Origin: a virus
Length of the DNA stretch: 45,059 nt
Reading direction: 5' to 3' (one strand)
Virus record (IMG/VR): IMGVR_UViG_3300028920_000116
Coordinates: 1 to 45,059 of that record
The translations under genes were made by a program, and so were the position numbers. Shown here piece by piece: positions 29,255 through 40,363 of this stretch (the stretch's first letter is position 1; every line of letters starts with the position of its first letter). The notes below the pieces were generated by a model. That model saw nothing but the letters and a program-made list of their open reading frames with translations. It made no database searches and was not told the origin of the DNA.

Positions 29255-29264
29255 ATAAAAATGG

Positions 29265-29338
29265 TGCCCGCTGATGGATTCGAACCATCGATCTCCGGTT
29301 TGTAGGACCGGTGCCCTGTACCGCTAGGCTAAGCGGGC
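29265..29338 (-). tRNA. tRNA-Val (TAC), C33
   Basis: Acceptor GCCCGCT/AGCGGGC, anticodon stem CCGGT/ACCGG with loop CCTACAA (C33), A73, encoded CCA. Confidence 0.88.
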
Positions 29339-29349
29339 AAAAATTTTGG

Positions 29350-29431
29350 TACTCGGGGTGGGATTTGAACCCACATTTTCAATGTACCAGTTACGAATAT
29401 CCAGTTTATAAGACTGGCTCGATACCCGAGT
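29350..29431 (-). tRNA. Non-canonical tRNA (TAT anticodon) with displaced D-arm
   Basis: Acceptor ACTCGGG/CCCGAGT, T-arm GTGGG/CCCAC with TTCAAAT, A73 and encoded CCA are normal. Only 7 nt (TATCGAG) separate the acceptor from a perfect anticodon arm CCAGT-CTTATAA-ACTGG. The D-arm-like sequence GTAACTGGTACATTG instead follows the anticodon arm, in a 26-nt region. A regular Ile(TAT) gene exists at 30064. See the Arg(TCT) gene at 31628 for the same arrangement. Confidence 0.65.
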
Positions 29432-29486
29432 ATAATAAATTATTTCTATACCTACGATCTCAGGCGTAAGTCCGAAATAATTTTAA

Positions 29487-29654
29487 TTATCTTCCTCTAC
29501 CACGACCAAGACCTTTACCAGGACCGCCTTGACCACGACCAATTCCTAATCCACGACCAGTATTAGTTCTTGAGTCATTTCCTTTACAATCTCCCAATCC
29601 TCTACCAGTTCTTGGACCTTCTCCTCTTGGGCCTGTTCTGTCACCACGGGGCAT
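29487..29654 (-). CDS. Gly/Arg-rich DUF5320-like peptide, 55 aa
   Basis: MPRGDRTGPRGEGPRTGRGLG followed by DCKGN and repeats of GRGxG up to GLGRGRGR. The opening has the form of DUF5320 proteins (MPxGDxTGPxGxGPxTGRGxGxC), small cellular proteins often found with iron-sulfur or molybdenum cofactor genes. Perfect AGGAGG ribosome site 6-7 nt before the ATG. It lies between tRNA genes; its function in a phage is unknown. Confidence 0.83.
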   Translation of the reverse strand: MPRGDRTGPRGEGPRTGRGLGDCKGNDSRTNTGRGLGIGRGQGGPGKGLGRGRGR

Positions 29655-29687
29655 AATAACCTCCTATAAAATGTTTATTAAAAGTGG

Positions 29688-29774
29688 CGGAGGAAGAGGG
29701 ACTTGAACCCCCAAGGGCATAAAATACCCGGTAGAGTAGCAGTCTACTGGCTTACCAATTAGCCATATTCCTCC
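29688..29774 (-). tRNA. tRNA-Ser (GCT)
   Basis: Acceptor GGAGGAA/TTCCTCC, loop CTGCTAC, long variable arm, G73, encoded CCA. Confidence 0.93.
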
Positions 29775-29776
29775 GA

Positions 29777-30049
29777 TTATATATTATCATATCTATCTTT
29801 TAATCGATGTAAACTTTCTATACATTCTTCATTATTAGAAAATACAATAATTCTATCTGTTATCATTGCATATATTAATCCAGCAAATAATTCTCTATCT
29901 GGTTTTTTATGTTCAACCAACATTTTATGAAATGTTTCTTGAGAAGAAGAAGTAATATCAAACACAATTGGTATATTTAATTGTTGACATAAACCAACTG
30001 TAAAAATTACTGCATCTTGACTTTCTTTGTCTTTTATTGAATCGAACAT
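29777..30049 (-). CDS. Hypothetical protein, 90 aa
   Basis: MFDSIKDKESQDAVIFTVGLCQQLNIPIVFDITSSS... alternating strands and helices, possibly a small alpha/beta fold; KPDRELFAGLIYAMITDRIIVF. ATG 30049 has AAGGA upstream; an in-frame ATG at 30088 lies inside the tRNA-Ile gene and is rejected. Neighbours are tRNAs on both sides. Confidence 0.75.
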   Translation of the reverse strand: MFDSIKDKESQDAVIFTVGLCQQLNIPIVFDITSSSQETFHKMLVEHKKPDRELFAGLIYAMITDRIIVFSNNEECIESLHRLKDRYDNI

Positions 30050-30063
30050 AATTATTTCCTTGG

Positions 30064-30138
30064 TAGGGACGGTGGGATTTGAACCCACATTCCGCTGTTT
30101 ATAAGACAGCCGTCTTTACCAATCGACATCACGTCCCT
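30064..30138 (-). tRNA. tRNA-Ile (TAT)
   Basis: Acceptor AGGGACG/CGTCCCT, normal D-arm GTCGATTGGTAAAGAC, anticodon stem GCTGT/ACAGC with loop CTTATAA, encoded CCA. The anticodon reads AUA, a codon favoured in AT-rich phage genes. Confidence 0.92.
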
Positions 30139-30162
30139 ATATTTTTATATATTATTTACTGG

Positions 30163-30238
30163 AAGCGGGGGTAGGATTTGAACCTACGGTCGAAAGGATA
30201 TGAGCCTTTCCAGTTAGCCAGACTACTTGCACCCCGCA
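30163..30238 (-). tRNA. tRNA with CAT anticodon (Met-type)
   Basis: Loop CTCATAT in stem AAAGG/CCTTT; acceptor GCGGGG/CCCCGC plus a T1-T72 mismatch, a feature that in bacteria marks initiators (C1-A72); U73; encoded CCA. Initiator status is not certain since the GGG/CCC anticodon-stem pairs are absent. Confidence 0.78.
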
Positions 30239-30246
30239 ATAAATTT

Positions 30247-30335
30247 GGTCCGGAGGGACATCGAGTTTTGACACTTAATCCGCTCACTCTCCCAACGGTA
30301 AAGTCAGGCGTTTTATTCTTAAACTACGGTAATCA
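30247..30335 (-). other. Possible degenerate tRNA or tRNA-like RNA
   Basis: The - strand ends CCTCCGGACCA like a tRNA 3' end and contains GTAGTTTAAGAATAAAACG, very like a Gly-type D-arm, but no T-loop or matching 5' acceptor is seen. It sits in phase with the array spacing, so it is best read as a decayed tRNA gene or an unusual tRNA-like RNA. Confidence 0.4.
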
Positions 30336-30338
30336 TGG

Positions 30339-30410
30339 TACCCTTACCAGGAATCGAACCTGGACTTCAAGCTTAGGAGACTAGCGCACTATCCATTATA
30401 CTATAAGGGC
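30339..30410 (-). tRNA. tRNA-Arg (CCT)
   Basis: Acceptor GCCCTTA/TAAGGGT, D-loop TAATGGATA, loop CTCCTAA, A73, encoded CCA. One mismatch in the anticodon stem. Confidence 0.87.
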
Positions 30411-30420
30411 ATCTATATGG

Positions 30421-30493
30421 TTGCAACGGGTGGGAGTTAAACCCACTTTACCCGGCTTATGAGACCGGTCAAGGTTCGACCTATTCCCCCTGC
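30421..30493 (-). tRNA. tRNA with CAT anticodon, copy 2
   Basis: Near-duplicate of 29083-29155: same GCAGGGGGAATAGGTCG 5' part and CCGTTGCAACCA 3' part; anticodon stem CCGGT/GCCGG with loop CTCATAA. The conserved G-G acceptor mismatch suggests selection and not decay. Confidence 0.75.
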
Positions 30494-30502
30494 TATATAT
30501 CT

Positions 30503-31198
30503 TTAAAATCTCCATTTGTCAATAAACAATTCTTTTTTAACACTGTCAAGGATCATTGGAAAAAAATCAATTCCTGTCAGTGTTTTCAAAGAATCCACTG
30601 TTATTATATATTGTTGCAATGGCTTTTTAGAATTTTCATTTGGTATTAAAAAAGCAATTGTCTTTATTTCAGGTTCTTCATTATCGAGTATTGCCTTAAA
30701 GAAATACTCTGGAACACTTACTTTATTCATTCCAATTGTAGGAAGACTATCTGTAAGAATAGGACCTGTTATAACATAAAGTATTCTTTCAAGTCTTACC
30801 CAATCTCTTACTTGTCCCTCAAGTTTTTTCCAAATTCCTCTGTTGAATCTTGGCTTCTGAGGAGACATATTTGACATGTAGAAAGATTCTCTCATTGTCT
30901 TTTCAGACCATGCCATATCAGCAGCCGGTGCCAAGTGTCCTCTATCATATCCTGACCACCTATAATCTTTTGGTGATGCAGAACCAGTTCTTATACTGTT
31001 GTCAAATTTAAAATTATTTTTTCTTTTATATGAACCGGCCATTAATTGGTATTTATTTATTTTATATGATACCCATCTCGCTTGTTCGTGTTGTTCAGAA
31101 TAACAAAGTGTATATCCTTCACGAATAATAATTGTATCTTTTACTTGTCCATATAAGGGGGACAGTAATAATAAAAGACATATAAGTAAATTTTTCAT
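30503..31198 (-). CDS. Exported DNA/RNA non-specific endonuclease (NUC family)
   Basis: 231 aa. Signal peptide MKNLLICLLLLLSPLYGQ (1-18), then a NUC/EndoG-type beta-beta-alpha-metal domain: WSGYDRGHLAPAADMAWS (catalytic DRGH, ~85-88) and FYMSNMSPQKPRFNRGIW with the metal-binding Asn, then ILYVITGPILTD. Degrades DNA and RNA outside the cytoplasm. The DRGHLAPAADM form is common in Bacteroidetes and Gram-negative secreted nucleases, so it was probably taken from a bacterium. A TATAAATA box (31225-31232) lies upstream, pointing to late expression. Confidence 0.9.
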   Translation of the reverse strand: MKNLLICLLLLLSPLYGQVKDTIIIREGYTLCYSEQHEQARWVSYKINKYQLMAGSYKRKNNFKFDNSIRTGSASPKDYRWSGYDRGHLAPAADMAWSEKTMRESFYMSNMSPQKPRFNRGIWKKLEGQVRDWVRLERILYVITGPILTDSLPTIGMNKVSVPEYFFKAILDNEEPEIKTIAFLIPNENSKKPLQQYIITVDSLKTLTGIDFFPMILDSVKKELFIDKWRF

Positions 31199-31224
31199 AA
31201 CTCTCCTTGTTAAGGTTTTTTACT

Positions 31225-31232
31225 TATTTATA
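31225..31232 (-). promoter_or_regulatory. Late-type TATAAATA box before the nuclease
   Basis: TATAAATA followed by AGTAAAA, 27 nt before the nuclease ATG, with AAGGAG between. Confidence 0.6.
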
Positions 31233-31236
31233 TCTT

Positions 31237-31515
31237 TTACCTTAAACACCACGTTCTACTTTGGTGCCTTTGTACGTAAAGTTGATTTACAAGAGTTCTA
31301 TTTTTTTCAAAGATTTCTAAAAGAATTATTCTATTAATTGATTCGAATATATTTTGATGTGCGTATCCCGATTCGATCTCTTGGGTCCATCTTCCATTAA
31401 TACCTGGAACTCCATCCTCATTAGGTTTTCCGCACCATTTTAATAGTAAACTATAATTATTGTTTTCGAATTTAAAAAGAATACTTTTAATATGTTCATT
31501 TATATTAGAGATCAT
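31237..31515 (-). CDS. Hypothetical protein, 92 aa
   Basis: MISNINEHIKSILFKFENNNYSL... soluble, mixed alpha/beta with WCGKPNEDGVPGINGRWTQE in the middle; no motif recognised. Weak AAGAGA ribosome site. Coding is likely from length and codon use alone. Confidence 0.6.
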   Translation of the reverse strand: MISNINEHIKSILFKFENNNYSLLLKWCGKPNEDGVPGINGRWTQEIESGYAHQNIFESINRIILLEIFEKNRTLVNQLYVQRHQSRTWCLR

Positions 31516-31542
31516 ATTTTCTCTTACTTTCTAAAAGTATGG

Positions 31543-31616
31543 TACCCCCGGCAGGACTTAAACCTGCGGCCCTGGGATTAGAAATCCCATGCTCTATTCA
31601 ACTGAGCTACGGGGGC
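31543..31616 (-). tRNA. tRNA-Arg (TCT)
   Basis: Acceptor GCCCCCG/CGGGGGT, normal D-arm GCTCAGTTGAATAGAGC, anticodon stem TGGGA/TCCCA with loop TTTCTAA, encoded CCA. Confidence 0.93.
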
Positions 31617-31627
31617 ACAAATGTTAG

Positions 31628-31707
31628 TACCCGCTAAGGGATTCGAACCCCCATTTTCAGCTCCATTTACACTTACGAAGGTAGAAGCTTCGCGTGGCTA
31701 AGCGGGC
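31628..31707 (-). tRNA. Non-canonical tRNA (TCT anticodon) with displaced D-arm
   Basis: Acceptor GCCCGCT/AGCGGGT and A73, but CTA replaces CCA. Only 8 nt (TAGCCACG) precede a perfect anticodon arm CGAAG-CTTCTAC-CTTCG. A 23-nt region GTGTAAATGGAGC...TGAAAAT that looks like the D-arms of neighbouring tRNAs follows the anticodon arm. It aligns with the same region of the 29350 tRNA (GTAA-TGG-...TGAAAAT). A regular Arg(TCT) gene is next door. Confidence 0.62.
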
Positions 31708-31717
31708 ATTAAAAGTC

Positions 31718-31778
31718 AGGATGGCATTTTTGGTTTCGATTCAAATTCGAAATTTTTAATTTTTGCAGAAACCATCCT
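31718..31778 (-). other. 61-nt element with 7-bp terminal stem
   Basis: AGGATGG (5' on the - strand, rc of 31772-31778) pairs with CCATCCT (rc of 31718-31724), enclosing GGTTTC/GAAACC nested pairing and an AT-rich core. tRNA-sized acceptor but no anticodon or T arm; possibly a decayed tRNA or small hairpin RNA. Confidence 0.4.
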
Positions 31779-31791
31779 TCAATATTATTCT

Positions 31792-32043
31792 TTATATATC
31801 TCCATTTATATCTCTGGCCGAATCTTCTCTTACATCTAAAAACCTTCTACGAAATTCATCGGCACAATGTTGAGCAGCGTATGTACAATCATGAAGAGTT
31901 GAATATCTGAACTCCTTATTTTGCATATACTTTTTCATTGCCCAAAATATAATGAATTCTAATTCGCCTTTAGTTTCAATGGTTGGACATTTATTAACCA
32001 TAGTTCTAAACTTTTCACGATCTTTTTGATTAATATACGGCAT
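31792..32043 (-). CDS. DUF6899-like phage protein, 83 aa
   Basis: MPYINQKDREKFRTMV...GELEFIIFWAMKKYM matches the small phage family with opening MPYIxxxDRxKF and GELNYxI (DUF6899), function unknown. ATG 32043 has AAGGAG 6 nt upstream; an in-frame TTG at 32049 is rejected. The C-terminal half has a Cys/His cluster (LHDCTYAAQHCADEF). Confidence 0.8.
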   Translation of the reverse strand: MPYINQKDREKFRTMVNKCPTIETKGELEFIIFWAMKKYMQNKEFRYSTLHDCTYAAQHCADEFRRRFLDVREDSARDINGDI

Positions 32044-32063
32044 CTTCAACTCCTTTTATGGGA

Positions 32064-32187
32064 ACGAATGTGCGTTTGTCTGACTTCGATTTCTTGCTTA
32101 GTTGATCAATCTAACAATAATTTCCCGACCTACCAGACAGTATGGGTGAGTATCAACCATAGAAACGGATATCTGCACCACATTCGT
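32064..32187 (-). ncRNA. Structured RNA candidate B (three-stem, ~124 nt)
   Basis: Terminal stem ACGAATGTG (32064-32072) / CACATTCGT (32179-32187). Inside it two further stems: TGTCTG (32077-32082) / CAGACA (32134-32139), and TATGG (32141-32145) / CCATA (32157-32161). No ORF of useful length, no tRNA domains. It lies in the tRNA array downstream of a CAT tRNA and a possible promoter at 32284-32313. The - strand is assigned because the array is transcribed that way. Confidence 0.55.
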
Positions 32188-32203
32188 ATTAATTTTTAAT
32201 TGG

Positions 32204-32279
32204 TACCGACGGGTGGATTTGAACCACCGCTCTTTTCCTTATGAGGGAACTGCATTAGGCCAGACTATGCTACGTCGGT
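32204..32279 (-). tRNA. tRNA with CAT anticodon (Met or Ile2)
   Basis: Acceptor ACCGACG/CGTCGGT, D-arm with GTCTGGCC, loop CTCATAA in stem TTCC/GGAA, encoded CCA. Confidence 0.85.
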
Positions 32280-32283
32280 ATAT

Positions 32284-32313
32284 AATATAATATTTGTATA
32301 AGAAGTTTGTCAA
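32284..32313 (-). promoter_or_regulatory. Possible sigma-70 promoter inside the tRNA array
   Basis: TTGACA (rc of 32308-32313), 18-nt spacer, TATATT (rc of 32284-32289). Its -35 overlaps the 3' end of the tRNA-Thr(CGT). Confidence 0.4.
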
Positions 32314-32386
32314 GCCTCCACAGGAAGTCGAATCCTGATCTCTGGTTTACGAAACCAGTATTTTATACCGGTTAAACTATAGAGGC
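32313..32386 (-). tRNA. tRNA-Thr (CGT)
   Basis: Acceptor GCCTCTA/TGGAGGC, anticodon stem CTGGT/ACCAG with loop TTCGTAA, U73. CCA is not encoded (TTGACA follows), unlike most of the array. Confidence 0.88.
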
Positions 32387-32394
32387 AGATGTGG

Positions 32395-32470
32395 AGCCTG
32401 CGGAGGGATTCGAACCCACGATAACATGCTTACAAGGCAAGCGCATTAGACCGGACTATGCTACACAGGC
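32395..32470 (-). tRNA. tRNA-Thr (TGT)
   Basis: Acceptor GCCTGTG/CGCAGGC, loop CTTGTAA, U73, encoded CCA. Confidence 0.9.
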
Positions 32471-32482
32471 TTTAAAATTTGG

Positions 32483-32565
32483 TACCGGGAGGGGGATTCG
32501 AACCCCCACGGAGATTACCCCCACCAGGTTCTAAACCTGGCATGTCTGCATTTCATCATCCCGGC
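32483..32565 (-). tRNA. tRNA-Leu (TAG)
   Basis: Acceptor GCCGGGA/TCCCGGT, anticodon stem CCAGG/CCTGG with loop TTTAGAA, long variable arm, A73, CCA. Confidence 0.93.
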
Positions 32566-32575
32566 GAATGATTGG

Positions 32576-32657
32576 TACCGAAGGAGGGACTTGAACCCTC
32601 AATCCACGAAGGCGTCAGGTTTTGAATCTGATGTGTATTCCGTTCCACCACTTCGGC
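32576..32657 (-). tRNA. tRNA-Leu (CAA)
   Basis: Acceptor GCCGAAG/CTTCGGT, loop TTCAAAA, long variable arm, A73, CCA. One imperfect pair closes the anticodon loop. Confidence 0.9.
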
Positions 32658-32669
32658 AAAATATTTTGG

Positions 32670-32752
32670 TGCGGTTGCCCGGACTTGAACCGGGACGAGA
32701 TTGCTCTCACAAGGCCCTCAACCTGGCGTGTCTGCCATTCCACCACAACCGC
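32670..32752 (-). tRNA. tRNA-Leu (GAG)
   Basis: Acceptor GCGGTTG/CAACCGC, loop TTGAGGG (G37, as usual for NAG-type Leu), long variable arm, CCA. Confidence 0.9.
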
Positions 32753-32754
32753 AA

Positions 32755-32871
32755 TTATTCTTCTAAGATTTTTTGTTTGAGCTTTACAAGAGTTTCGATT
32801 CTGTATGTAGTTTGAAAGTGTTTACTAAGAATCTTTAATCTTTCAATTTCATTATCAATGATTTCAATCAC
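32755..32871 (-). CDS. Short helical peptide, 38 aa (GTG start)
   Basis: VIEIIDNEIERLKILSKHFQ... a charged amphipathic helix. Start GTG 32871 overlaps the stop of the upstream gene by 8 nt; a longer TTG-initiated reading from 33009 would overlap it almost entirely and is rejected. No ribosome site, so expression would rely on coupling. Confidence 0.45.
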   Translation of the reverse strand: MIEIIDNEIERLKILSKHFQTTYRIETLVKLKQKILEE

Positions 32872-33112
32872 TCGATCTGAATTTAACAGTTGGTAATTCT
32901 TTGAGCAAGTTGAGAATAAAGCATTTCTCAATTGCTTCCTCTTGAATAATGTTTTTAACATTTTTATCACATTCAATTTCGACGACCAATCTTTTTGTAT
33001 TTTTATCAAAGGAAACTTTTATATTTTGTACTTTACTTCTTTCAACAATATCTTTAACATGCGACAAAATACAAAGTTTTGCCGCTTGGCATAAATGTTG
33101 TATTGGAGTCAC
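32864..33112 (-). CDS. Hypothetical protein, 82 aa (GTG start)
   Basis: TPIQHLCQAAKLCILSHVKDIV then a beta-rich half NIKVSFDKNTKRLVVEIECD and a helix. GTG 33112 lies 3 nt after the stop of the ANRFMDDE gene, consistent with coupling. No family recognised. The product could bind RNA or protein, but there is no direct support. Confidence 0.62.
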   Translation of the reverse strand: MTPIQHLCQAAKLCILSHVKDIVERSKVQNIKVSFDKNTKRLVVEIECDKNVKNIIQEEAIEKCFILNLLKELPTVKFRSSD

Positions 33113-33115
33113 GGA

Positions 33116-33403
33116 TTAATTATATTTACGCCTACGACGATTACTCATTCTTCTAGTAGTATCTCTAAGTTTTTGAATAAGCATATCAACATCTTTTCTA
33201 AGAGTCTGGGACATTTCTATGCCCAACGAATCTTCTACTGCTTCTTGGTTTTGATCCAGCGCATCAAGAAATCCATTAAGCTCTTCAATGGTTCTATATG
33301 CAAATGTTGAAACTGCACCCTCAAGATATCTTCTGTTTGTTCTACGAGGAGCTTCTCCTTCGTCGTCCATAAAACGATTAGCATTTCCTACAAGATCGGC
33401 CAT
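33116..33403 (-). CDS. Probable virion-internal basic protein, ANRFMDDE leader
   Basis: 95 aa. MADLVGNANRFMDDEGE is a variant of the ANRFLGE leader, then a helical body (TIEELNGFLDALDQNQEAVED) and a strongly basic end RRMSNRRRRKYN suited to DNA contact inside the head. AAAGGAG ribosome site; a near-consensus late box TAATAAATAC at 33440-33449. Confidence 0.8.
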   Translation of the reverse strand: MADLVGNANRFMDDEGEAPRRTNRRYLEGAVSTFAYRTIEELNGFLDALDQNQEAVEDSLGIEMSQTLRKDVDMLIQKLRDTTRRMSNRRRRKYN

Positions 33404-33446
33404 TTTTAATCTCCTTTAAAAGTGAAATTATGTACTCTTGTATTTA

Positions 33447-33608
33447 TTAAAATTTGTGAATTAAATTTCCAAGTTTATCATAAACACCGCAATCGCAAGC
33501 TGTAGCCCTTTTCCTTTTTCCAGTATCAGGAACATACAGAGTTGCCTTTCTTTCCTGGTTGCATGTCTTACACATAATCTTTGGGGCTACCCACTTTGTC
33601 TTGTTCAT
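33447..33608 (-). CDS. Small zinc-ribbon protein, 53 aa
   Basis: MNKTKWVAPKIMCKTCNQERKA then ATACDCGVYDKLG: two Cys knuckles (CKTC and CDC) typical of small phage zinc ribbons. AAAGGAT ribosome site. Below the usual length cut-off for gene callers. Confidence 0.75.
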   Translation of the reverse strand: MNKTKWVAPKIMCKTCNQERKATLYVPDTGKRKRATACDCGVYDKLGNLIHKF

Positions 33609-33633
33609 TTTATTATCCTTTCAAGTTATTTGG

Positions 33634-33705
33634 AAACCAGGCTGGGAATCGAACCCAGATTTTTAGATTCAAAGTCTAATGTCCTAGCCTTTGGACGACC
33701 CGGCT
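33634..33705 (-). tRNA. tRNA-Gln (TTG)
   Basis: Acceptor AGCCGGG/CCTGGTT (two G-U), anticodon stem TTAGA/TCTAA with loop CTTTGAA, U73, CCA. Confidence 0.9.
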
Positions 33706-33714
33706 ATGTTCTGG

Positions 33715-33788
33715 TCGGAGTGGAGGGATTTGAACCCCCGACGTCTTGCTCCCAAAGCAAGCGCTCTTCCAGACTGAGCCACACTCCG
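33715..33788 (-). tRNA. tRNA-Pro (TGG)
   Basis: Acceptor CGGAGTG/CACTCCG, anticodon stem CTTGC/GCAAG with loop TTTGGGA, A73, CCA. C1-G72 fits Pro identity. Confidence 0.93.
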
Positions 33789-33799
33789 AAATTTTTTGG

Positions 33800-33882
33800 T
33801 GCGGCTGGAGGGATTTGAACCCTCAATCCCTTACGGGCGACGGATTTTAAGTCCGTTGTGTATTCCATTCCACCACAACCGC
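33800..33882 (-). tRNA. tRNA-Leu (TAA)
   Basis: Acceptor GCGGTTG/CAGCCGC, stem ACGGA/TCCGT with loop CTTAAAA, long variable arm, CCA. Reads UUA, the main Leu codon of AT-rich genes. Confidence 0.93.
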
Positions 33883-33892
33883 ATATATTTGG

Positions 33893-33966
33893 TACTGGCG
33901 GCGGGATTTGAACCCGCGATTATCAGCGTGAAAAGCTGATGGATTAGACCACTACCCTACGCCAGC
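33893..33966 (-). tRNA. tRNA-Glu (TTC)
   Basis: Acceptor GCTGGCG/CGCCAGT, stem TCAGC/GCTGA with loop TTTTCAC, A73, CCA. Confidence 0.92.
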
Positions 33967-33983
33967 ATTTAAATTTCAAAGAA

Positions 33984-34015
33984 AAGTAATAGGCATTTCC
34001 GGATACCTATTACTT
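33984..34015 (-). terminator. Terminator-like hairpin after RNA C
   Basis: Perfect 10-bp stem AAGTAATAGG/CCTATTACTT with 12-nt loop, followed on the - strand by TTCTTTG. It lies just downstream of RNA C and is transcribed from the promoter at 34134-34162. Confidence 0.65.
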
Positions 34016-34019
34016 CAAT

Positions 34020-34127
34020 ATTAAAGGCGTGTCCACAAATGCTGTTAAGCCAAACATTTGTCTTTTAAGTCCTTAACCGACCGAGACATCTTGCGCCTCC
34101 ATGTGAGGCAAGACCTCTAACATCTAT
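34020..34127 (-). ncRNA. Small structured RNA candidate C with own promoter and terminator
   Basis: Predicted start ~34127, seven nt after the -10 at 34134. Stems: GCCTC/GAGGC (34095-34099 / 34105-34109); AGGCG+TGTC (34025-34033) with GACA (34085-34088) and CGCCT (34094-34098), alternative to the first; ACAAATG/CATTTGT (34035-34041 / 34055-34061). Loop CTTAAC (rc of 34044-34049) can pair with GTTAAG (rc of 34072-34077), a 6-bp kissing contact. No ORF, no tRNA T-arm. Confidence 0.62.
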
Positions 34128-34133
34128 ATATAT

Positions 34134-34162
34134 ATTATAACACTTTTTTGAGAAATAGTCAA
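34134..34162 (-). promoter_or_regulatory. Sigma-70-type promoter TTGACT-N17-TATAAT
   Basis: -35 TTGACT (rc of 34157-34162), 17-nt spacer, perfect -10 TATAAT (rc of 34134-34139). The spacer end AAGTGT matches that of the 41672 promoter. It drives RNA C and possibly, by read-through, the tRNAs downstream. Confidence 0.85.
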
Positions 34163-34179
34163 GCACTAAATTATACTGG

Positions 34180-34252
34180 TACTCCTAAGGGGAATTGAAC
34201 CCCTGTCCCAAGTCTGAGAAACTTGTATCCTTGGCCACTAGACGATAGGAGC
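34180..34252 (-). tRNA. tRNA-Glu (CTC)
   Basis: Acceptor GCTCCTA/TAGGAGT, stem CAAGT/ACTTG with loop TTCTCAG, A73, CCA. Confidence 0.92.
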
Positions 34253-34267
34253 ATTTATTTAAATTTT

Positions 34268-35929
34268 TTAAAATGGTAAATCGAAGTCTTTTACTACTTT
34301 TTCTACTTCATCACGATCATCTGACTTATACTTTTTCTTTACTGATATCTTAGATGTTCTATCTTTAAACTTAGCATATGATATAACTTCATCAGAATTC
34401 ATTAACCATTCTGCTAATTCTCTAATTTTAAAAGCTGGCATAGTAGTTGAAATATATGAAGGCAAATTTGTTATTAATATATTACTAATAATCTTTAATA
34501 CTGGATTCTTAAATGATTCAGGATTATTTCTATAATAATTTAATAAATCTAATATACTTTTATTTCCGTTTTTATTTTTCCAAGCAAAGTCAATCTTTTT
34601 AATTGGATCAAATTTTTTTAAAGCATCAGGTGGAAAATAATATGGATCATCATATTTTACTTCAGGATAAATAGTTTTCCAATATTCCCATCCGTCTATT
34701 TTCATACGTAATTTTTTAGAATCTGATAATTTATCATAATCACCACTATCATACATTAATCCATAAGGACTTGCCCATATAATAAATGGTCGATTATAAT
34801 CATTTGCTCTTTCTGCGGCCCATTGTGTATATTTTTTTCCATCCTTTTCAATTTCATTTTTAATCATTTGTTCTCGTTGTTTTTTCTCTTTATCAGTTAT
34901 TGGAATAATTTCAATAATAATATTCCCGCGTTTTTTCATATTATTTTCAAATTCTTTTATTGAAATATTTATGGGTCTTATTGCAACATAATCATCAGAT
35001 TTAATCCAAACAATTGCAATAGGAGTACCATATCTTATTAAATATTCATCATTTTTAATAGTATTTTTTTTGTTTTTTATTATCCATTCATATCTTTTTT
35101 TAATTTTATTAACTTCTTCTTGTTGTCTTTCTTTTTCTATTTTTATATAATCTTCAAGAGTTTTATTATATAATTTTTTTAATGCATAAGCCATTGGTCT
35201 ATACAACTGATAAGAAATATTATCAAGATAAACGTGTGGTTCGGTTGCATCTCTCTTATAATTTAATGCAGATTGAAGCCATGTAAAATCGTCATTATGT
35301 TTTGCAAAATCTTTTACTTTAGTAAAGACAGTTCCTGTATTATGTTGAAGATCATATACATGGTCAATTGCAACAATTTTGTCTCCTATTTTTTCTGCAT
35401 TAAGAAGTCTTTCTAAACCATTTGCAATTTTTTCCCAATTTTTTCCACCATATTGTGATCTCCATTCTAGAATATCTTCATTGAAAGCTTTCTTCGCAAA
35501 AGAGGCTAATGTAAATGGAGACATATTATTAAGTTCTTTAAAAAATTTAGTTCTTTCTTCGTAATTAGGCATACCTGTTTCTTTAATTAAGTCATACATG
35601 TCACTAATTAAATCAAGTTCTTTTTTCGTAAAAGTAGTACTTTCTAATTCTTTATTTGTAAAACTTCTATAATCTGTCTTATAAGGAATATGAAATAGTT
35701 CGGCGGCAAGAGAAGTATATAATGCATTTGTAAAATCCTTTTTTAATGCATCGACTATAGTTTCTTTGGCCTGCTTAAAATATGTAACTGCTTCTTCGTC
35801 CATAAGAGCATCAGGATTAAACATTGTCAGTGCATAGAAGTCGAACAACTGATGCTCTTTATCTTTAGGAACAGAATAGTATCCTTCCATTCCGAATTTT
35901 TCTTGTAAGTAAAATTCTCTGAATTTCAT
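34268..35929 (-). CDS. Large hypothetical protein (553 aa) with leader-like N-terminus
   Basis: MKFREFYLQEKFGMEGYY starts like a T4 capsid-targeting leader (aromatic helix ending LQE). The body is a largely helical, charged protein with YRPMAYALKKLYNK, IKKRYEWIIKNKKN, ERANDYNRPFIIWASPYGLMY cut by Asp-rich loops; no enzymatic signature recognised. It follows the two ANRFLGE genes at 35931 and 36261 closely and probably shares their late transcript. Candidate internal head protein, comparable in size to T4 Alt, but no ADP-ribosyltransferase motif is evident. Confidence 0.82.
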   Translation of the reverse strand: MKFREFYLQEKFGMEGYYSVPKDKEHQLFDFYALTMFNPDALMDEEAVTYFKQAKETIVDALKKDFTNALYTSLAAELFHIPYKTDYRSFTNKELESTTFTKKELDLISDMYDLIKETGMPNYEERTKFFKELNNMSPFTLASFAKKAFNEDILEWRSQYGGKNWEKIANGLERLLNAEKIGDKIVAIDHVYDLQHNTGTVFTKVKDFAKHNDDFTWLQSALNYKRDATEPHVYLDNISYQLYRPMAYALKKLYNKTLEDYIKIEKERQQEEVNKIKKRYEWIIKNKKNTIKNDEYLIRYGTPIAIVWIKSDDYVAIRPINISIKEFENNMKKRGNIIIEIIPITDKEKKQREQMIKNEIEKDGKKYTQWAAERANDYNRPFIIWASPYGLMYDSGDYDKLSDSKKLRMKIDGWEYWKTIYPEVKYDDPYYFPPDALKKFDPIKKIDFAWKNKNGNKSILDLLNYYRNNPESFKNPVLKIISNILITNLPSYISTTMPAFKIRELAEWLMNSDEVISYAKFKDRTSKISVKKKYKSDDRDEVEKVVKDFDLPF

Positions 35930-35930
35930 T

Positions 35931-36248
35931 TTATTTTAAAACATGAGCATAAAATGCACCATCTAATGATCCAACAGAATGACGTAAATCCGCACCCAAT
36001 CCTAAATCACCAAGATTTTCTACTTCAATATAATAAAAATTAGGATCGTCGAACCAATTAGCGATTGCCTTATCTCCAACCTTAGCTATTTCACGGTTAT
36101 CTTCATATTTTTTCATTAATTCTTGAAAAGAATTTACGTCAATTTCCGGCATTATTTCTTTAAGGTCTTCAATATTTTTAAGAGCAATTGTAGTTGAAGC
36201 ATCTTCTCCTAAAAAATGATTAGCTCTTTCGACTAGATTTCTTTTCAT
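35931..36248 (-). CDS. Probable virion-internal protein, ANHFLGE leader
   Basis: 105 aa. MKRNLVERANHFLGEDAS leader with LGE site, acidic helix (IEDLKEIMPEIDVNSFQELM), then GDKAIANWFDDPNFYYIEVENLG. AAGGAG ribosome site. Ends 2 nt before the 553-aa gene starts. Confidence 0.82.
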   Translation of the reverse strand: MKRNLVERANHFLGEDASTTIALKNIEDLKEIMPEIDVNSFQELMKKYEDNREIAKVGDKAIANWFDDPNFYYIEVENLGDLGLGADLRHSVGSLDGAFYAHVLK

Positions 36249-36260
36249 TAGATAATCTCC

Positions 36261-36488
36261 TTATTTCTTTTCTTCTTTTTCTTTTTCTGCGTCTTCAAGC
36301 TTTTTGATTTCGGCCTTGCAGTCCTTGATGATTTCTTTTTGCTCTTTAACCTTAGCATTTAAATCTTCAATTTCTTTTTCTGCCTTAGCAATCTTCTTTT
36401 CAAAAGACTTAACAGTTTTCTTTGCTTCCATTATGACTTCGACTTCACCAAGAAAACGATTTGCGGATTCGACTAATTTCTTTTCCAT
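36261..36488 (-). CDS. Probable virion-internal coiled-coil protein, ANRFLGE leader
   Basis: 75 aa. MEKKLVESANRFLGEVEV leader, then a continuous Lys/Glu coiled coil (heptads of EKKIAKAEKEIEDLNAKVK...). Late promoter TATAAATAC at 36538-36546 lies 50 nt upstream; ribosome site AAAGGAG. First gene of the 36488-34268 operon. Confidence 0.84.
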   Translation of the reverse strand: MEKKLVESANRFLGEVEVIMEAKKTVKSFEKKIAKAEKEIEDLNAKVKEQKEIIKDCKAEIKKLEDAEKEKEEKK

Positions 36489-36537
36489 TATAATACTCCT
36501 TTGGTTAGATAATCTCTGAATTATTCAGGACTTAAAA

Positions 36538-36546
36538 GTATTTATA
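36538..36546 (-). promoter_or_regulatory. T4-like late promoter TATAAATAC
   Basis: Perfect TATAAATAC followed by TTTTAAG, upstream of the ANRFLGE operon (36488 to 34268). Confidence 0.77.
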
Positions 36547-36565
36547 ATTTTAATAATAAGAATGG

Positions 36566-36651
36566 CAGGCGGCGAGAGATTCGAACTCCCATTGACTCAA
36601 GTTAAGTCACGGTTTTGGAGACCGCTGCATTGCCATTTATGCTAGCCGCCT
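36566..36651 (-). tRNA. tRNA-Trp (CCA) with long variable arm
   Basis: Acceptor AGGCGGC/GCCGCCT with G73 (Trp identity), anticodon stem GCGGT/ACCGT with loop CTCCAAA. Unusual 18-nt variable region with GACT/AGTC stem; Trp tRNAs are normally class I. CCA encoded. Confidence 0.87.
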
Positions 36652-36675
36652 ATTGAATTTTATTGAAAAAATTGG

Positions 36676-36754
36676 CGGAGCGTACGGGATTTGAACCCGT
36701 GAAAATCTCCGACGTGACAAGCCGGCGTCTTAGACCTGACTAGACCAACGCTCC
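36676..36754 (-). tRNA. tRNA-Asp (GTC)
   Basis: Acceptor GGAGCGT/ACGCTCC, G73, stem CCGGC/GTCGG with loop TTGTCAC, variable region 8 nt, CCA. Confidence 0.9.
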
Positions 36755-36755
36755 G

Positions 36756-36999
36756 CAAATTCTTGTATTGCACCATATATTTCTTGAATTATATCAGTTC
36801 TACAAATTGTTAATCTGCATATTCCATATTTTAAAATATTTTTTCTATATCCAGTTGGTTTTCTTTTTTCTAATATATGTTTATTTAAATTAATTTTAGA
36901 CAAATTAAGAATATTAAGCCAGTATTTTTCTATTTCAGAAATTTTGATCCCATTATCTCTATATCCGATTGAAATCTTAAATTCTTCTTCTTTAGATTT
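36756..36999 (-). pseudogene. Gene remnant: HTH/LAGLIDADG-like family fragment
   Basis: A frame without a start codon, open from inside tRNA-Asn (G-CCA-AATC...) to a stop inside tRNA-Asp at 36730. Sequence KSKEEEFKISIGYRDNGIKI, YWLNILNLSKINLNKHIL, KYGICRLTICRTDIIQEIYG then AIQEFAE. The YGxCRxxxxxTxxxQxIYGxIQ ending is seen in bacterial and phage proteins combining HTH and LAGLIDADG-like parts. Both ends run into tRNA genes, so this is probably a decayed mobile endonuclease. Confidence 0.5.
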
Positions 37000-37001
37000 G
37001 G

Positions 37002-37075
37002 CAGACCTACCAGGATTCGAACCTAGACTAAAAGAGTAACAATCTTTCGTGCTCGCCAAGTTACACTATAGGTCT
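37002..37075 (-). tRNA. tRNA-Asn (GTT), copy 1
   Basis: Acceptor AGACCTA/TAGGTCT, stem AAAGA/TCTTT with loop TTGTTAC, G73, CCA. Confidence 0.92.
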
Positions 37076-37085
37076 GTAAAGTTGG

Positions 37086-37158
37086 CTCCATCCCCAGGAT
37101 TCAAACCTGGATGTTCTCGGTTAACAGCCGAGCCTATTATCAATTATAGTAGGATGGA
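37086..37158 (-). tRNA. tRNA-Asn (GTT), copy 2
   Basis: Acceptor TCCATCC/GGATGGA, stem CTCGG/CCGAG with loop CTGTTAA, G73, CCA. Sequence differs widely from copy 1, so not a recent duplicate. Confidence 0.92.
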
Positions 37159-37171
37159 GTAAAATTCAAAG

Positions 37172-37244
37172 TACCCCCAGAAGGATTTGAACCTTCGACT
37201 CTCGCCTTAAAAGGGCGATACTCTAGCCGCTGAGTTATGGAGGC
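37172..37244 (-). tRNA. tRNA-Lys (TTT), copy 1
   Basis: Acceptor GCCTCCA/TGGGGGT, stem TCGCC/GGCGA with loop CTTTTAA, A73; CCA not encoded. Confidence 0.9.
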
Positions 37245-37255
37245 AAAATGTTTGG

Positions 37256-37330
37256 TACCCCCGGAAAGATTCGAACTCTCATTATTTTCGGGTCGTAGCC
37301 GAATGCCATAATCCATTAGGCGACGGGGGC
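37256..37330 (-). tRNA. tRNA-Arg (ACG)
   Basis: Acceptor GCCCCCG/CGGGGGT, stem TTCGG/CCGAA with loop CTACGAC, A73, CCA. A34 needs host TadA to become inosine. Confidence 0.92.
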
Positions 37331-37340
37331 AAAATTTTGG

Positions 37341-37413
37341 TTAGGGTGGAAGGAATCGAACCCTCATTTATAGAGCCAGAGTCTATCGTTCTAAGCCGTT
37401 GAACTACACCCCA
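37341..37413 (-). tRNA. tRNA-Gln (CTG)
   Basis: Acceptor TGGGGTG/CACCCTA, stem ATAGA/TCTAT with loop CTCTGGC, A73, CCA. U1-A72 fits Gln identity. Confidence 0.92.
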
Positions 37414-37423
37414 ATATATTTGG

Positions 37424-37497
37424 TACCTCCTTAGGGATTCGAACCCCAACCTTACACGTTAAGAGCGTGCCATGCTAAACCGTTACACCAAGGAGGC
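37424..37497 (-). tRNA. tRNA-Lys (CTT)
   Basis: Acceptor GCCTCCT/AGGAGGT, loop CTCTTAA, A73, CCA. Confidence 0.91.
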
Positions 37498-37517
37498 ATT
37501 TTTAAAACAAGTTATGG

Positions 37518-37601
37518 TGGGAGCAGATGGAGTCGCACCACCCGAGCCGTGAGGCAAAAGATTTACAGTCTTCCCCGCTACTACTTACGGAATATACTCC
37601 C
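37518..37601 (-). tRNA. tRNA-Tyr (GTA)
   Basis: Acceptor GGGAGTA/TGCTCCC, stem GAAGA/TCTTT with loop CTGTAAA, long variable arm (class II, as in bacterial Tyr), A73, CCA. The T-loop is TGCGACT where TTCGACT is expected. Confidence 0.88.
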
Positions 37602-37609
37602 TTTAAAAA

Positions 37610-38440
37610 AAAGTATAATGCCTGAGATTACAGCTTATTAGTTCCTACTTTCATTCCCGTACCGTCAAGGTGCGACCCCTGATGTTAAGAACTTATCCAC
37701 TTCTCCAAGAGAAGTATAGAAACATGACTGCCTTTTTTAAAGAGTGGCGATTCTCTTGTCGTACAAAGCTGTCTCAACTTTTGAATTACCGACTACGGTG
37801 GCCGCCGCAGAACGTGCATTCTCAAATCAACTGTCTTTCACCTTGCGAGTGTCAGACTGCCTTTGTTCAACCGAAGTTGCAAAGGATTAAGTCACTTTGA
37901 CTTTGTACCGATCGGGTCTTTGCGTTTTAGTTGCAAATAAAGGAGTTGAACCTTTACCCATTGATGAATAGTCAATTGCCCTACCACTAGGCTAATTCGC
38001 TAACCAACCGTGATGTGCCCGATCTGTTGTGTCATGTCCTTTTGAGACACGATATGCAACACACCACATGTCTTTCAGTTGTCACCTACTTGACCATTTT
38101 TCAAGATTAATGTCATACAAGTATGCCATCAACCTATCAAATTGCTAATAAGCCCTCGTCCACAACGACTCGGACAAATTAACTACTGTTCCCTCTCATA
38201 GATGGTTATGTCGATTCCTCTTCCTTCTTGTCTCCAAGATATCTGCGTCCTTTGGTTATTACGACGTGCCTTTCGGCGAGGCACAACTTCTCTAAAAACT
38301 CCGCGGTAAGGCGAAGTCATAGGAGAGTCAGCTTGCTTGAGAGGACCGTTTCCGGCGATGGTATGTTGGCATTCCACCTTTACACATCTTGCAATGTGCT
38401 ATCCGATTATACTGATGTCAAGCCATCAGTTAAGTAAATT
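37610..38440 (-). ncRNA. Giant structured non-coding RNA candidate (GOLLD/ROOL-like)
   Basis: About 830 nt without a credible ORF, visibly richer in G+C than the genes, between tRNA-Lys and tRNA-Tyr. Clear hairpins: ACTTCTC/GAGAAGT (37699-37715), GTGTC/GACAC (38029-38050), GTGCCT/AGGCAC (38266-38284), ACTGATG/CATCAGT (38411-38430). GATCGGG (37910-37916) pairs with CCCGATC (38018-38024) around a tRNA-like element. An eight-T run (rc of 37606-37613) ends it before tRNA-Tyr. GOLLD and ROOL RNAs are phage-associated, of this size, lie near tRNAs and can contain a tRNA. Identity is inferred; a different RNA family or several shorter RNAs are possible. Confidence 0.6.
37933..38000 (-). other. tRNA-like element embedded in the giant RNA
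   Basis: Acceptor-like GCGAAT/ATTTGC, D-arm GCCTAGTGGTAGGGC, anticodon arm ATTGA-CTATTCA-TCAAT and T-arm AAAGG-TTCAACT-CCTTT. The anticodon would be ATT with C37, which is not a normal tRNA; no CCA; the acceptor helix continues outward (GTT/AAC) into the surrounding RNA. Probably structural, or a tRNA released by processing. Confidence 0.6.
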
Positions 38441-38448
38441 CTATTTGG

Positions 38449-38523
38449 TACCCCTACCAGGATTCGAACCTGGACCTGACGGATTAAAAGTCCGCTATGC
38501 TAAGCCATTAACACCATAGAGGC
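38449..38523 (-). tRNA. tRNA-Lys (TTT), copy 2
   Basis: Acceptor GCCTCTA/TAGGGGT, stem GCGGA/TCCGT with loop CTTTTAA, A73, CCA. Directly upstream of the giant RNA. Confidence 0.91.
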
Positions 38524-38532
38524 ATAAAGTGA

Positions 38533-38560
38533 CCTAGGTTTTTGATATGGAGAACCTAGG
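38533..38560 (-). repeat. Hairpin CCTAGGTT/AACCTAGG
   Basis: Perfect 8-bp inverted repeat (38533-38540 / 38553-38560) with 12-nt loop between tRNA-Lys and tRNA-Ile. No T-run on either side, so a processing or spacer hairpin is more likely than a terminator. Confidence 0.6.
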
Positions 38561-38576
38561 AAACTCCGATGTTTGG

Positions 38577-38650
38577 TACTACGGGTTGGACTTGAACCAA
38601 CTATCTCCTGTGTATCAGACAGGTGCATTTCCCAGTTGTGCTACCGTAGT
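38577..38650 (-). tRNA. tRNA-Ile (GAT)
   Basis: Acceptor ACTACGG/CCGTAGT, stem CCTGT/ACAGG with loop CTGATAC, A73, CCA. Confidence 0.92.
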
Positions 38651-38661
38651 ATAATGTTTGG

Positions 38662-38738
38662 TCTGGAGGGGGAGATTCGAACTCCCGTGATCTCGGTTCC
38701 AGGCCGAGTGACTCTTACGCAGACTAGCCTACCCCCAG
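38662..38738 (-). tRNA. tRNA-Pro (TGG), copy 2, C33
   Basis: Acceptor CTGGGGG/CCTCCAG, stem CTCGG/CCGAG with loop CCTGGAA (C33), A73, CCA. The D-arm is enlarged. Confidence 0.83.
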
Positions 38739-38814
38739 AAAATTTTTAATTAATAAAAGTTTCTAATACTTTTTTTATTTTTCCATTATAATGGATATTC
38801 TTTTAAAAGAATGG

Positions 38815-38890
38815 TGGCTGCGTCCGGAATCGAACCGGAGCTATTTCCCAGGGCTTCAACCTAGAGCTCTACCTACTGAGCTACACAGCC
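38815..38890 (-). tRNA. tRNA-Phe (GAA)
   Basis: Acceptor GGCTGTG/CGCAGCC, D-arm GCTCAGTAGGTAGAGC, loop TTGAAGC, A73, CCA. Confidence 0.9.
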
Positions 38891-38904
38891 AAAATATCTT
38901 TAGT

Positions 38905-39090
38905 AAGTGTAAGTGTGTCCCGCGGTGGTCTATGACCTCCGAAGAACACACCCACTATTAAAACATAATGTTTCCATTATGGTTTTTTCGTACTTTCCAA
39001 TGTGCTTTTTACTTAAAACCGATACTGTCAAAGAACGCGAGTTTCTTTTTTACCAAAGGGATAGTTAAGAAACTCTAACAAACCTATCCA
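38905..39090 (-). other. Structured non-coding interval D
   Basis: Holds several pairings: GTGTGT/ACACAC around GGTGGTC-TAT-GACCTCC (38910-38951); CATAATG/CATTATG (38964-38981) with a T-run on both strands, terminator-like; GGATAG/CTATCC (39058-39088); and GAGTTTCTT pairing with AAGAAACTC across 39020-39080. No ORF. It may be one or two small RNAs plus a terminator. Confidence 0.45.
38964..38981. terminator. Short bidirectional terminator-like hairpin
   Basis: Perfect 7-bp stem CATAATG/CATTATG with 4-nt loop; followed by GTTTTTT on + and TTTTAAT on -. Confidence 0.6.
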
Positions 39091-39099
39091 AATTTTTGG

Positions 39100-39170
39100 T
39101 GGAGAAGGACGGTTACGCTCCGTCGTTCCTAGTTTGCAAGACTAGTGTTCTCCTATTGAACTACATCCCC
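39100..39170 (-). tRNA. tRNA-Ala (TGC) with unusual T-loop
   Basis: Anticodon stem CTAGT/ACTAG with loop CTTGCAA; acceptor GGGGATG/CTTCTCC with one T-T mismatch; A73, CCA. The T-stem GACGG/CCGTC carries loop AGCGTAA, with no TTC. No G3-U70 with G at 3; the pair at 3-70 is G-U, the Ala identity element. Confidence 0.78.
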
Positions 39171-39216
39171 ATTATACCTAATGTTATTTTAGAATGACAA
39201 TTAGGACATACAATTA

Positions 39217-39378
39217 CTAAATTGTCAATACTATTATTTTTTCCTTCAAACTTTTAGGATCGACTAACCAACCCTTTTTAACACTAAACGTACCATCATA
39301 ACAGGCACATTCAAATGAACAATAAATGAGATCATCTTCTATCATTCTGTTACAATCTTTTTCTTTACACTTGTGCAT
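39217..39378 (-). CDS. Small Cys-rich protein, possibly frameshifted
   Basis: 53 aa: MHKCKEKDCNRMIEDDLIYC with SFECACYDGTFSVKKGWL. GGAG lies 8 nt before ATG 39378; the start overlaps the upstream gene. Downstream of an A6 run (39237-39242) the -1 frame reads NNSIDNLVIVCPNCHSKI and ends at 39161, giving a third Cys pair in an HNH-like NLVIVCPNCH context. So the gene may have lost its C-terminus by one base, or may use frameshifting. Confidence 0.65.
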   Translation of the reverse strand: MHKCKEKDCNRMIEDDLIYCSFECACYDGTFSVKKGWLVDPKSLKEKIIVLTI

Positions 39379-39514
39379 TTTCTTTCTCCGATTTCTCAAG
39401 TTCCCCTCTACATTCGGGACACTTATAAACATCTTTTCCTTCAGAGTTTCTTAAAACCCATAATCTTTTATTTTCATCAACGATGTTTCCACAACTTAAA
39501 CATTTGTACTTCAT
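39365..39514 (-). CDS. Small zinc-ribbon protein, 49 aa
   Basis: MKYKCLSCGNIVDENKRLWV...VYKCPECRGELEKSEKEN: two CxxC knuckles, a rubredoxin-like zinc ribbon. It overlaps the next gene by 14 nt and starts 6 nt after the HAD gene, so it is co-expressed. No good ribosome site seen, so coupling is likely. Confidence 0.72.
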   Translation of the reverse strand: MKYKCLSCGNIVDENKRLWVLRNSEGKDVYKCPECRGELEKSEKENAQV

Positions 39515-39519
39515 TTTTT

Positions 39520-39792
39520 TTAAACCTTAATGTTTACTTTTCCAAGTTCAACTTCCATATCGTCTAATGCGATATCAGGAGTGATTGAACCTTTTGCTAA
39601 AATTTTTGCATCGAGCCCAAGCTTTTGTGCCCATCTCTCTGCATAATCCATTCCACTTCCAGACCAGATTACCATTTCACAACCGAACTTCTGGAAGAGT
39701 TCGAACATTTGAATTACATCATATCTTGGAGTGTCTACATACTCTCCAACCTGATAAATCAGGGTTCCATCAACGTCAAATGCTACAATCAT
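39520..39792 (-). CDS. Small HAD-superfamily hydrolase
   Basis: 90 aa. Motif I MIVAFDVDGTLI, motif II VIWSGSGMDYAERWAQKLG, motif III Lys in DAKILAKGS, motif IV-like IALDDMEVE. Minimal HAD fold without a cap domain, so a phosphatase of nucleotides, nucleic-acid ends or sugar phosphates. GGAG precedes ATG 39792; a longer frame up to 39912 runs through the tRNA-His and is rejected. Confidence 0.83.
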   Translation of the reverse strand: MIVAFDVDGTLIYQVGEYVDTPRYDVIQMFELFQKFGCEMVIWSGSGMDYAERWAQKLGLDAKILAKGSITPDIALDDMEVELGKVNIKV

Positions 39793-39810
39793 TTTTTCTC
39801 CAATGTTTGG

Positions 39811-39885
39811 GGCGGCCGAAGGGATTCGAACCCTTTCCTTAACAGTCACAGTGTTATATGCTAAACCGATTACACCACGGTCGCC
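39811..39885 (-). tRNA. tRNA-His (GTG)
   Basis: G-1 pairs with C73, the His identity pair. Acceptor GCGACCG/CGGCCGC with one A-C mismatch; stem TAACA/TGTTA with loop CTGTGAC; CCA encoded. Confidence 0.92.
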
Positions 39886-39918
39886 ATAAATTTTTTCTTT
39901 ACAAATCCCCAAAAAAAA

Positions 39919-39941
39919 GGGAGTCGGTTCGGCCGACTCCC
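39919..39941 (-). terminator. Strong intrinsic terminator
   Basis: Perfect 9-bp GC-rich stem GGGAGTCGG/CCGACTCCC, 5-nt loop, followed on the - strand by TTTTTTTT (rc of 39911-39918). Confidence 0.95.
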
Positions 39942-39969
39942 TCTTCAGGTTCTTATAGGAGTTCGGCCC

Positions 39970-40077
39970 TTACACAGTATTATCCTGTTCTACCTTGGCC
40001 CAAATATAGAGCGCCGTAAAGGCTCTACTCATGGGCAGGCTCGGATTGCGTTTATGTGTTGATTGACTGCGTAACAT
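39970..40077 (-). CDS. Possible 35-aa peptide inside the rod-like RNA
   Basis: MLRSQSTHKRNPSLPMSR then AFTALYIWAKVEQDNTV, with AGGAG 7 nt before the ATG. The ribosome site and both ends of the ORF are paired in the predicted rod, and codon use is unlike other genes here. It may be chance, or a peptide under structural control. Confidence 0.35.
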   Translation of the reverse strand: MLRSQSTHKRNPSLPMSRAFTALYIWAKVEQDNTV

Positions 40078-40151
40078 TTAAATTTCTCCTATGAAATTTT
40101 GTTATAACTCTATCTAATTGTATTTAGAGTTCTTTTTTATTTTCTGTATTA

Positions 40152-40180
40152 ATTATACCACTTTTTTTAAAAGATGTCAA
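40152..40180 (-). promoter_or_regulatory. Perfect sigma-70 promoter TTGACA-N17-TATAAT
   Basis: -35 TTGACA (rc of 40175-40180), 17-nt spacer, -10 TATAAT (rc of 40152-40157). Full consensus, preceded by AAAAAAAAAGC. Confidence 0.92.
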
Positions 40181-40189
40181 GCTTTTTTT

Positions 40190-40363
40190 TTACTTTTTTG
40201 ATCTTTCTTCTAAAAAATTGAATGCTTCTTTTTTCTTTAAAAAGTAAACGTTTTTAAATTTACCCTTCCTAAAAAACCCAAAGTTTTTCCAAAAGAAGAA
40301 TAAGAACTTTTTTTGTGGGAAGTATCTACTTCCAATTTTTACTACACGATATTTGTATTTCAT
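40190..40363 (-). CDS. Small basic aromatic protein, 57 aa
   Basis: MKYKYRVVKIGSRYFPQKKF then LFFFWKNFGFFRKGKFKNVY; very basic and Phe-rich, no membrane-like run without charges. No ribosome site; the ATG follows the 40375-40394 hairpin. Codon use suits the genome. Unknown function. Confidence 0.55.
   Translation of the reverse strand: MKYKYRVVKIGSRYFPQKKFLFFFWKNFGFFRKGKFKNVYFLKKKEAFNFLEERSKK

Follow-up and report, generated by a model that had tools for sequence, protein, structure and literature searches.

Genomic setting of the RNA

The window (the whole stretch of DNA analysed, 45,059 nt of virus record IMGVR_UViG_3300028920_000116) contains a phage DNA polymerase, UvsX and a tRNA array, a location of the kind expected for GOLLD RNAs. 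The array runs along the minus strand from 25161 to 39884 and comprises about 42 genes that cover all 20 amino acids, mostly encoding CCA. The first-pass annotation, made from the letters alone, had placed a giant structured RNA within a phage tRNA array, and this was borne out by ARAGORN, which finds 39 tRNAs when the element embedded in the RNA is counted, with Rfam adding a few more. The segment and its immediate surroundings are as follows.

39171..39200, minus: promoter-like TTGTCA-18-TATAAT, 11/12, just before tRNA-Ala and upstream of the GOLLD segment (consensus match only)
38446..38523, minus: tRNA-Lys (TTT), ending in CCA, directly upstream of the GOLLD RNA (ARAGORN)
about 37610..38440, minus: whole GOLLD RNA, about 820-835 nt (RF02032 match and full-length alignment A2)
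37605..37612, minus: T8 run, no adjacent GC-rich stem (sequence, terminator scan)
37515..37601, minus: tRNA-Tyr (GTA), directly downstream of the GOLLD RNA, missed by ARAGORN (resembles annotated phage tRNA-Tyr)

Three properties ascribed to positions 37610-38440 at first reading, the absence of an ORF, raised G+C and many hairpins, all held. No ORF overlapping the segment exceeds 76 aa, all of them being short chance ORFs, and its G+C content is 43.3% against a mean of 32.6% (sd 4.7) for 830-nt stretches of the window, 3.4% of which reach this value. The minus strand folds with a minimum free energy of -246 kcal/mol (z -5.9; 0/20 dinucleotide shuffles fold as well) and the plus strand gives a z of only -1.7; the functional strand is the minus one.

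The terminal T8 run is present at 37612-37605 on the minus strand, but its reading as a terminator-like end was not supported: no terminator-like stem was found, and tRNA-Tyr begins within 4 nt. Promoter-like sites at 39200-39171 and 40180-40152 are oriented so as to read into the array, with which the GOLLD RNA would probably be co-transcribed; processing of the tRNAs on either side would then account, at least in part, for its ends. In L057, L058 and L059 (Streptococcus) and in L061, a tRNA or tRNA-like match starts about 4-12 nt past the GOLLD 3' end, a proximity which suggests that tRNA processing makes that end.

Two other parts of the array were observed in passing. On the minus strand at 39905-40180, a perfect sigma-70-type promoter (12/12, with an extended -10) precedes a short ORF that has an AGGAG resembling a ribosome-binding site; next comes a strong hairpin with T8 before tRNA-His, a hairpin absent from the terminator-scan list. 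The arrangement resembles a terminator-bearing leader upstream of the tRNA array. Between tRNA-Phe and tRNA-Ala, at 38891-39099, lie about 200 nt with apparent inverted repeats by eye, in which no ORF of 60 aa and no family match were found.

Identity of the RNA

The Rfam GOLLD model (RF02032) matches 38067-37619 on the minus strand with 164.7 bits (gathering score 150, E 1.5e-44). The match runs from the first to the last model position (1-416), so that it is not truncated, and the search finds a single copy in the 45-kb record. GOLLD RNA is reportedly to be credited to Weinberg 2009. The first-pass annotation had proposed this family and had named this search as the check, and with a full-model match above the gathering score it is practically certain that the element at 37610-38440 is a GOLLD RNA. 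The other identities that it had offered fell away. ROOL, likewise a large phage RNA found near tRNAs and likewise cage-forming, gave no covariance-model match over 37500-40200 even with E allowed up to 1, and the match to the GOLLD model leaves no place for a new class of large RNA. No match to any other Rfam family was found for the RNA.

On sequence, the window copy is a divergent member of the known family, as its 164.7 bits are modest beside the 306-340 bits of lake GOLLDs, which were found in viral contigs by a two-motif pattern. It also differs from known GOLLDs in missing one hairpin of RF02032, through a deletion at about model positions 247-265, and the stoichiometry of the window RNA may differ for this reason.

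Relatives and clade

Several searches for relatives came back empty. A BLASTN search with the RNA as query, covering 50,697 phage records, gave, among the matches listed, only hits in the flanking tRNA-Tyr; relatives sought via the 553-aa protein at 34268-35929 gave none that could be confirmed; a stricter window-specific pattern had no match; and a first genome scan for GOLLD returned 0 loci. A looser second genome scan returned 5 loci, 4 of them GOLLDs (three in Streptococcus and one in a Bacteroidales MAG contig), and a second GOLLD pattern with a longer spacer returned 99 loci. When 36 records were searched with RF02032, 35 matched, 31 of them above the cut-off. Two alignments were made: A1 contains 31 sequences including the window, each with a tRNA-like element at the same place in the linker, and A2 contains 21 full-length sequences.

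A tree of GOLLDs was built on the last 285 nt, with the linker excluded. It contains a 34-sequence clade (bootstrap 81), 31 members of which have a tRNA-like linker and three of which do not, and a second group of 29 (bootstrap 99) in which none has one. Judged by these sequences, the tRNA-like linker is a character of one GOLLD clade, present in 31/34 members. The 31 sequences yield a clade alignment to which the current Rfam model is poorly suited, several members scoring under its cut-off.

Outside the clade, L106 carries a GOLLD at 13244-13747 on the minus strand (138.2 bits, below cut-off) whose linker tRNA is circularly permuted. Its linker begins with the T arm, the acceptor 3' strand CTCCCCC, G and CCA, and continues with a 9-bp spacer hairpin, the acceptor 5' strand GGGGGAG, the D arm and the anticodon arm. 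No relatives of this permuted element were found in the viral contigs or phage records searched, and since it sits outside the clade, it suggests that a tRNA was acquired a second time.

Layout of the whole RNA

The domains and main structural elements of the window copy are listed below.

38068..38430, minus: 5' domain, beyond the Rfam model (alignment A2 and covarying consensus structure)
38412..38429, minus: first hairpin of the 5' end, CTGATG-GCTTGA-CATCAG (A2 consensus structure)
37619..38067, minus: 3' domain, RF02032 model 1-416 (covariance-model match)
38060..38067 with 38010-38017, minus: outer stem of the first 3'-domain hairpin (helix 1, 95.6% of cells paired)
38027..38059, minus: inner hairpin with UCAAAAG loop (helices 2-3 of the A1 covariation analysis)
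38018..38024, minus: GATCGGG, 5' side of the linker-closing stem (helix 4 of the A1 analysis)
37910..37916, minus: CCCGATC, 3' side of the linker-closing stem (A1 covariation)
37793..37810, minus: hairpin CTGCGG-CGGCCA-CCGTAG, whose palindromic GGCC hexaloop may form a symmetric kissing loop
37694..37716, minus: conserved hairpin TACTTC...GAAGTGGATA (RF02032 match, alignment A2)
37622..37632, minus: near-universal 3' motif TGTAATCTCAG (GOLLD pattern searches, A2)

The ends are approximate, the 5' end lying near 38430-38445 and the 3' end near 37610. The resulting length agrees with the around 800 nt, including a more variable 5' domain, that characterize GOLLD RNAs, and the copy resembles the env-38 GOLLD in its full 3'-domain match, in its two-domain layout and in a length near env-38's 833 nt. 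It also shares with the family the variable linker that sometimes holds a tRNA, and the phage tRNA array. In A2 the 5' domain shows homology with the 5' half of each of 20 related phage GOLLDs, and of the 153 pairs in the A2 consensus structure, 125 show two-sided change in at least one sequence.

By eye, the segment offers just short ORFs and an inner tRNA, and the first-pass annotation had named a set of decayed tRNAs and protein-gene remnants, instead of one RNA, as the reading that would overturn its proposal. A full-length family match, together with structure that is conserved and covaries along about 820 nt, makes this reading vanishingly improbable; covariation along the whole length in relatives excludes it.

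The stem closing the linker

The 7-bp pairing GATCGGG/CCCGATC, pointed out at first reading as enclosing the tRNA-like element, would be weak evidence by itself, a bare 7-bp match being expected about 20 times by chance in 830 nt by our own estimate. It is accepted as a real helix because of the comparative evidence: the equivalent stem covaries across the 31 GOLLDs of A1, with 95.4% of cells paired and two-sided changes at 6/7 pairs. Variants include GATCAAG/CTTGATC (L056), GGAGCAG/CTGCTCC (L070) and GGCCGAG/CTCGGCC (L061), and lake GOLLDs have the equivalent stem as GACGGAC/GTCCGTC. The 5' strand sits in a bulge of the preceding hairpin, so that the stem forms a pseudoknot. The Rfam GOLLD structure lacks this helix, its structure line leaving both strands unpaired.

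When the linker helix and the tRNA stems are considered together (n=31), 94.0% of cells are paired against 72.6% in shuffles and the covariation score is 0.561 against 0.165, with 0/500 shuffles as high, although such shuffle tests overstate independence because the compared sequences share ancestry. The signal collapses once the partners are slid.

The tRNA-like domain

The element enclosed by this stem has the following parts.

37930..38001, minus: tRNA-like domain, ARAGORN 'Asn att' (ARAGORN and Rfam tRNA, 56.4 bits)
37995-38001 and 37932-37938, minus: acceptor strands
37978-37992, minus: D arm
37960-37976, minus: anticodon arm
37939-37955, minus: T arm

The embedded tRNA-like element of the first-pass annotation is thus present, and it is a cloverleaf whose core has the expected D- and T-loop bases, but the CCA and the sound acceptor end of a functional tRNA gene are absent; 'tRNA-like domain' is the better name for this reason. 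The window copy has an A1-A72 mismatch and C37. Across the set, the D, anticodon and T stems have 96-98% of their cells paired and show two-sided changes (n=31), and U8, A14, the D-loop GG, T54, T55, C56, A58, C61 and U33 are kept in 28-30/30 linker elements. Folded alone, the linker tRNA is no better than shuffles (z -0.46), an uninformative result.

The acceptor end differs from this core. Pairs 1-72, 2-71 and 3-70 form in 61, 35 and 61% of elements against 96-100% in control tRNAs, a comparison somewhat in the controls' favour as these were picked for having CCA. The window acceptor is among the better ones of the set, with pairs 2-7 forming. CCA is encoded in 3/31 linker elements (L079, L113 and L157) compared with 326/369 other tRNAs of the same loci, and in 36/38 other tRNAs of the window. 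The anticodon varies among close relatives whose cores are about 89-96% identical (GCU in L090, UCU in L141, UUU in L156), and L131 has an anticodon loop of 8 nt. Recent capture of the window element from its own array was considered and rejected, the best identity of 0.80 being the background level.

These data bear on whether the linker tRNA is cut out by RNase P and 3' processing and translates AAU, leaving the remainder as a by-product or a two-piece RNA. The score of the cloverleaf as a tRNA, the retention of U33, a purine at position 37 in most relatives and the few encoded CCAs all speak for it, and in the window copy a host CCA-adding enzyme could supply the missing CCA to an acceptor that largely pairs. 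Such a tRNA nevertheless appears improbable given the mismatch and C37 of the window copy, the scarcity of CCA and the poorly kept outer acceptor pairs in the set, and the drifting anticodons; the array already holds two tRNA-Asn (GTT). A pairing of leader with trailer that is possible in many relatives (0/1000 partner shuffles as good, with phylogeny not removed) also counts against it, as does the 'pseudo tRNA' held by a Mycobacterium GOLLD, for which separate expression was not detected (PMC6582537). The linker element is very probably not an ordinary working tRNA, and looks like a long-kept tRNA mimic; taken jointly, GOLLD identity and a linker that mimics a tRNA instead of serving translation are quite probable.

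The insert could alternatively be neutral filler in a linker that tolerates anything, with tRNA fragments landing from the surrounding genes. Lake GOLLD linkers are A-rich and without a tRNA, L092, L135 and L116 have lost the element or hold a broken copy, and other tRNAs lie nearby in 29/31 element loci against 27/123 loci outside the clade, the latter including some chance pattern matches. Filler would not be expected to show the strong two-sided covariation of the D, anticodon and T stems or the near-invariant elbow bases across so divergent a clade, and the permuted tRNA of L106, with the second acquisition to which it points, also argues against it. We regard neutral filler as rather unlikely.

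The Mycobacterium GOLLD resembles the window copy in lying inside a large tRNA cluster and in its internal pseudo-tRNA (PMC6582537), going by its description, and differs in that its cluster is on a bacterial chromosome; it is one described case, whereas the mimic described here is a clade character. The window RNA also recalls tmRNA, a large RNA with a tRNA-like part, but no tmRNA match was found in the window, and the tRNA part of GOLLD is internal and lacks CCA. As a separate observation, tmRNA genes occur near GOLLD in L007, L008, L011, L012, L015, L001, L010, L056 and L106, in some phage contigs on the opposite strand and no more than a few hundred bases away.

A probable cage with internal tRNA mimics

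The env-38 GOLLD is a closed, hollow, RNA-only 14-mer with the linker in its interior (cryo-EM, Kretsch et al. 2025, PMC12286853), and its authors note that tRNAs sometimes occur in the linker (PMC12286853). The window RNA has the GGCC hexaloop listed above and the same region of other GOLLDs has YGGCCR or CGATCA hexaloops; such palindromic GGCC or GATC loops fit symmetric, self-pairing kissing loops, and the one in the window copy is at most a candidate counterpart of the env-38 bridge loops. From the env-38 14-mer with its interior linker and the hexaloop of the window copy, the best reading is a cage with internal mimics. By analogy, the window RNA is probably a cage-type multimer: it would fold and self-assemble into a hollow cage of RNA alone, resembling the env-38 14-mer, each subunit holding one tRNA mimic inside.

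The elbow and anticodon arm are kept while the acceptor end is not, which is why we suggest, tentatively, as the leading reading of its role though still less likely than not, that the mimic may act as bait or a docking site for factors that read these parts of a tRNA. Candidate partners would be the ribosome or host proteins that bind or cleave tRNAs. Somewhat more doubtful is the extension to the whole clade, in which a caged mimic that keeps its elbow and anticodon arm intact, with an anticodon that drifts and an acceptor end that is disabled, would present many tRNA baits per particle. If true, caged baits could, for example, soak up host defences that cleave tRNAs, or retain ribosomes or proteins that bind tRNA, and L106, with its permuted tRNA, would have reached the same result independently.

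The present data extend the single Mycobacterium pseudo-tRNA case (PMC6582537) to a whole GOLLD clade. The structure of the GOLLD cage is solved, and since the linker lies inside the cage, the conserved interior tRNA mimic may be the most direct clue to its possible cargo.
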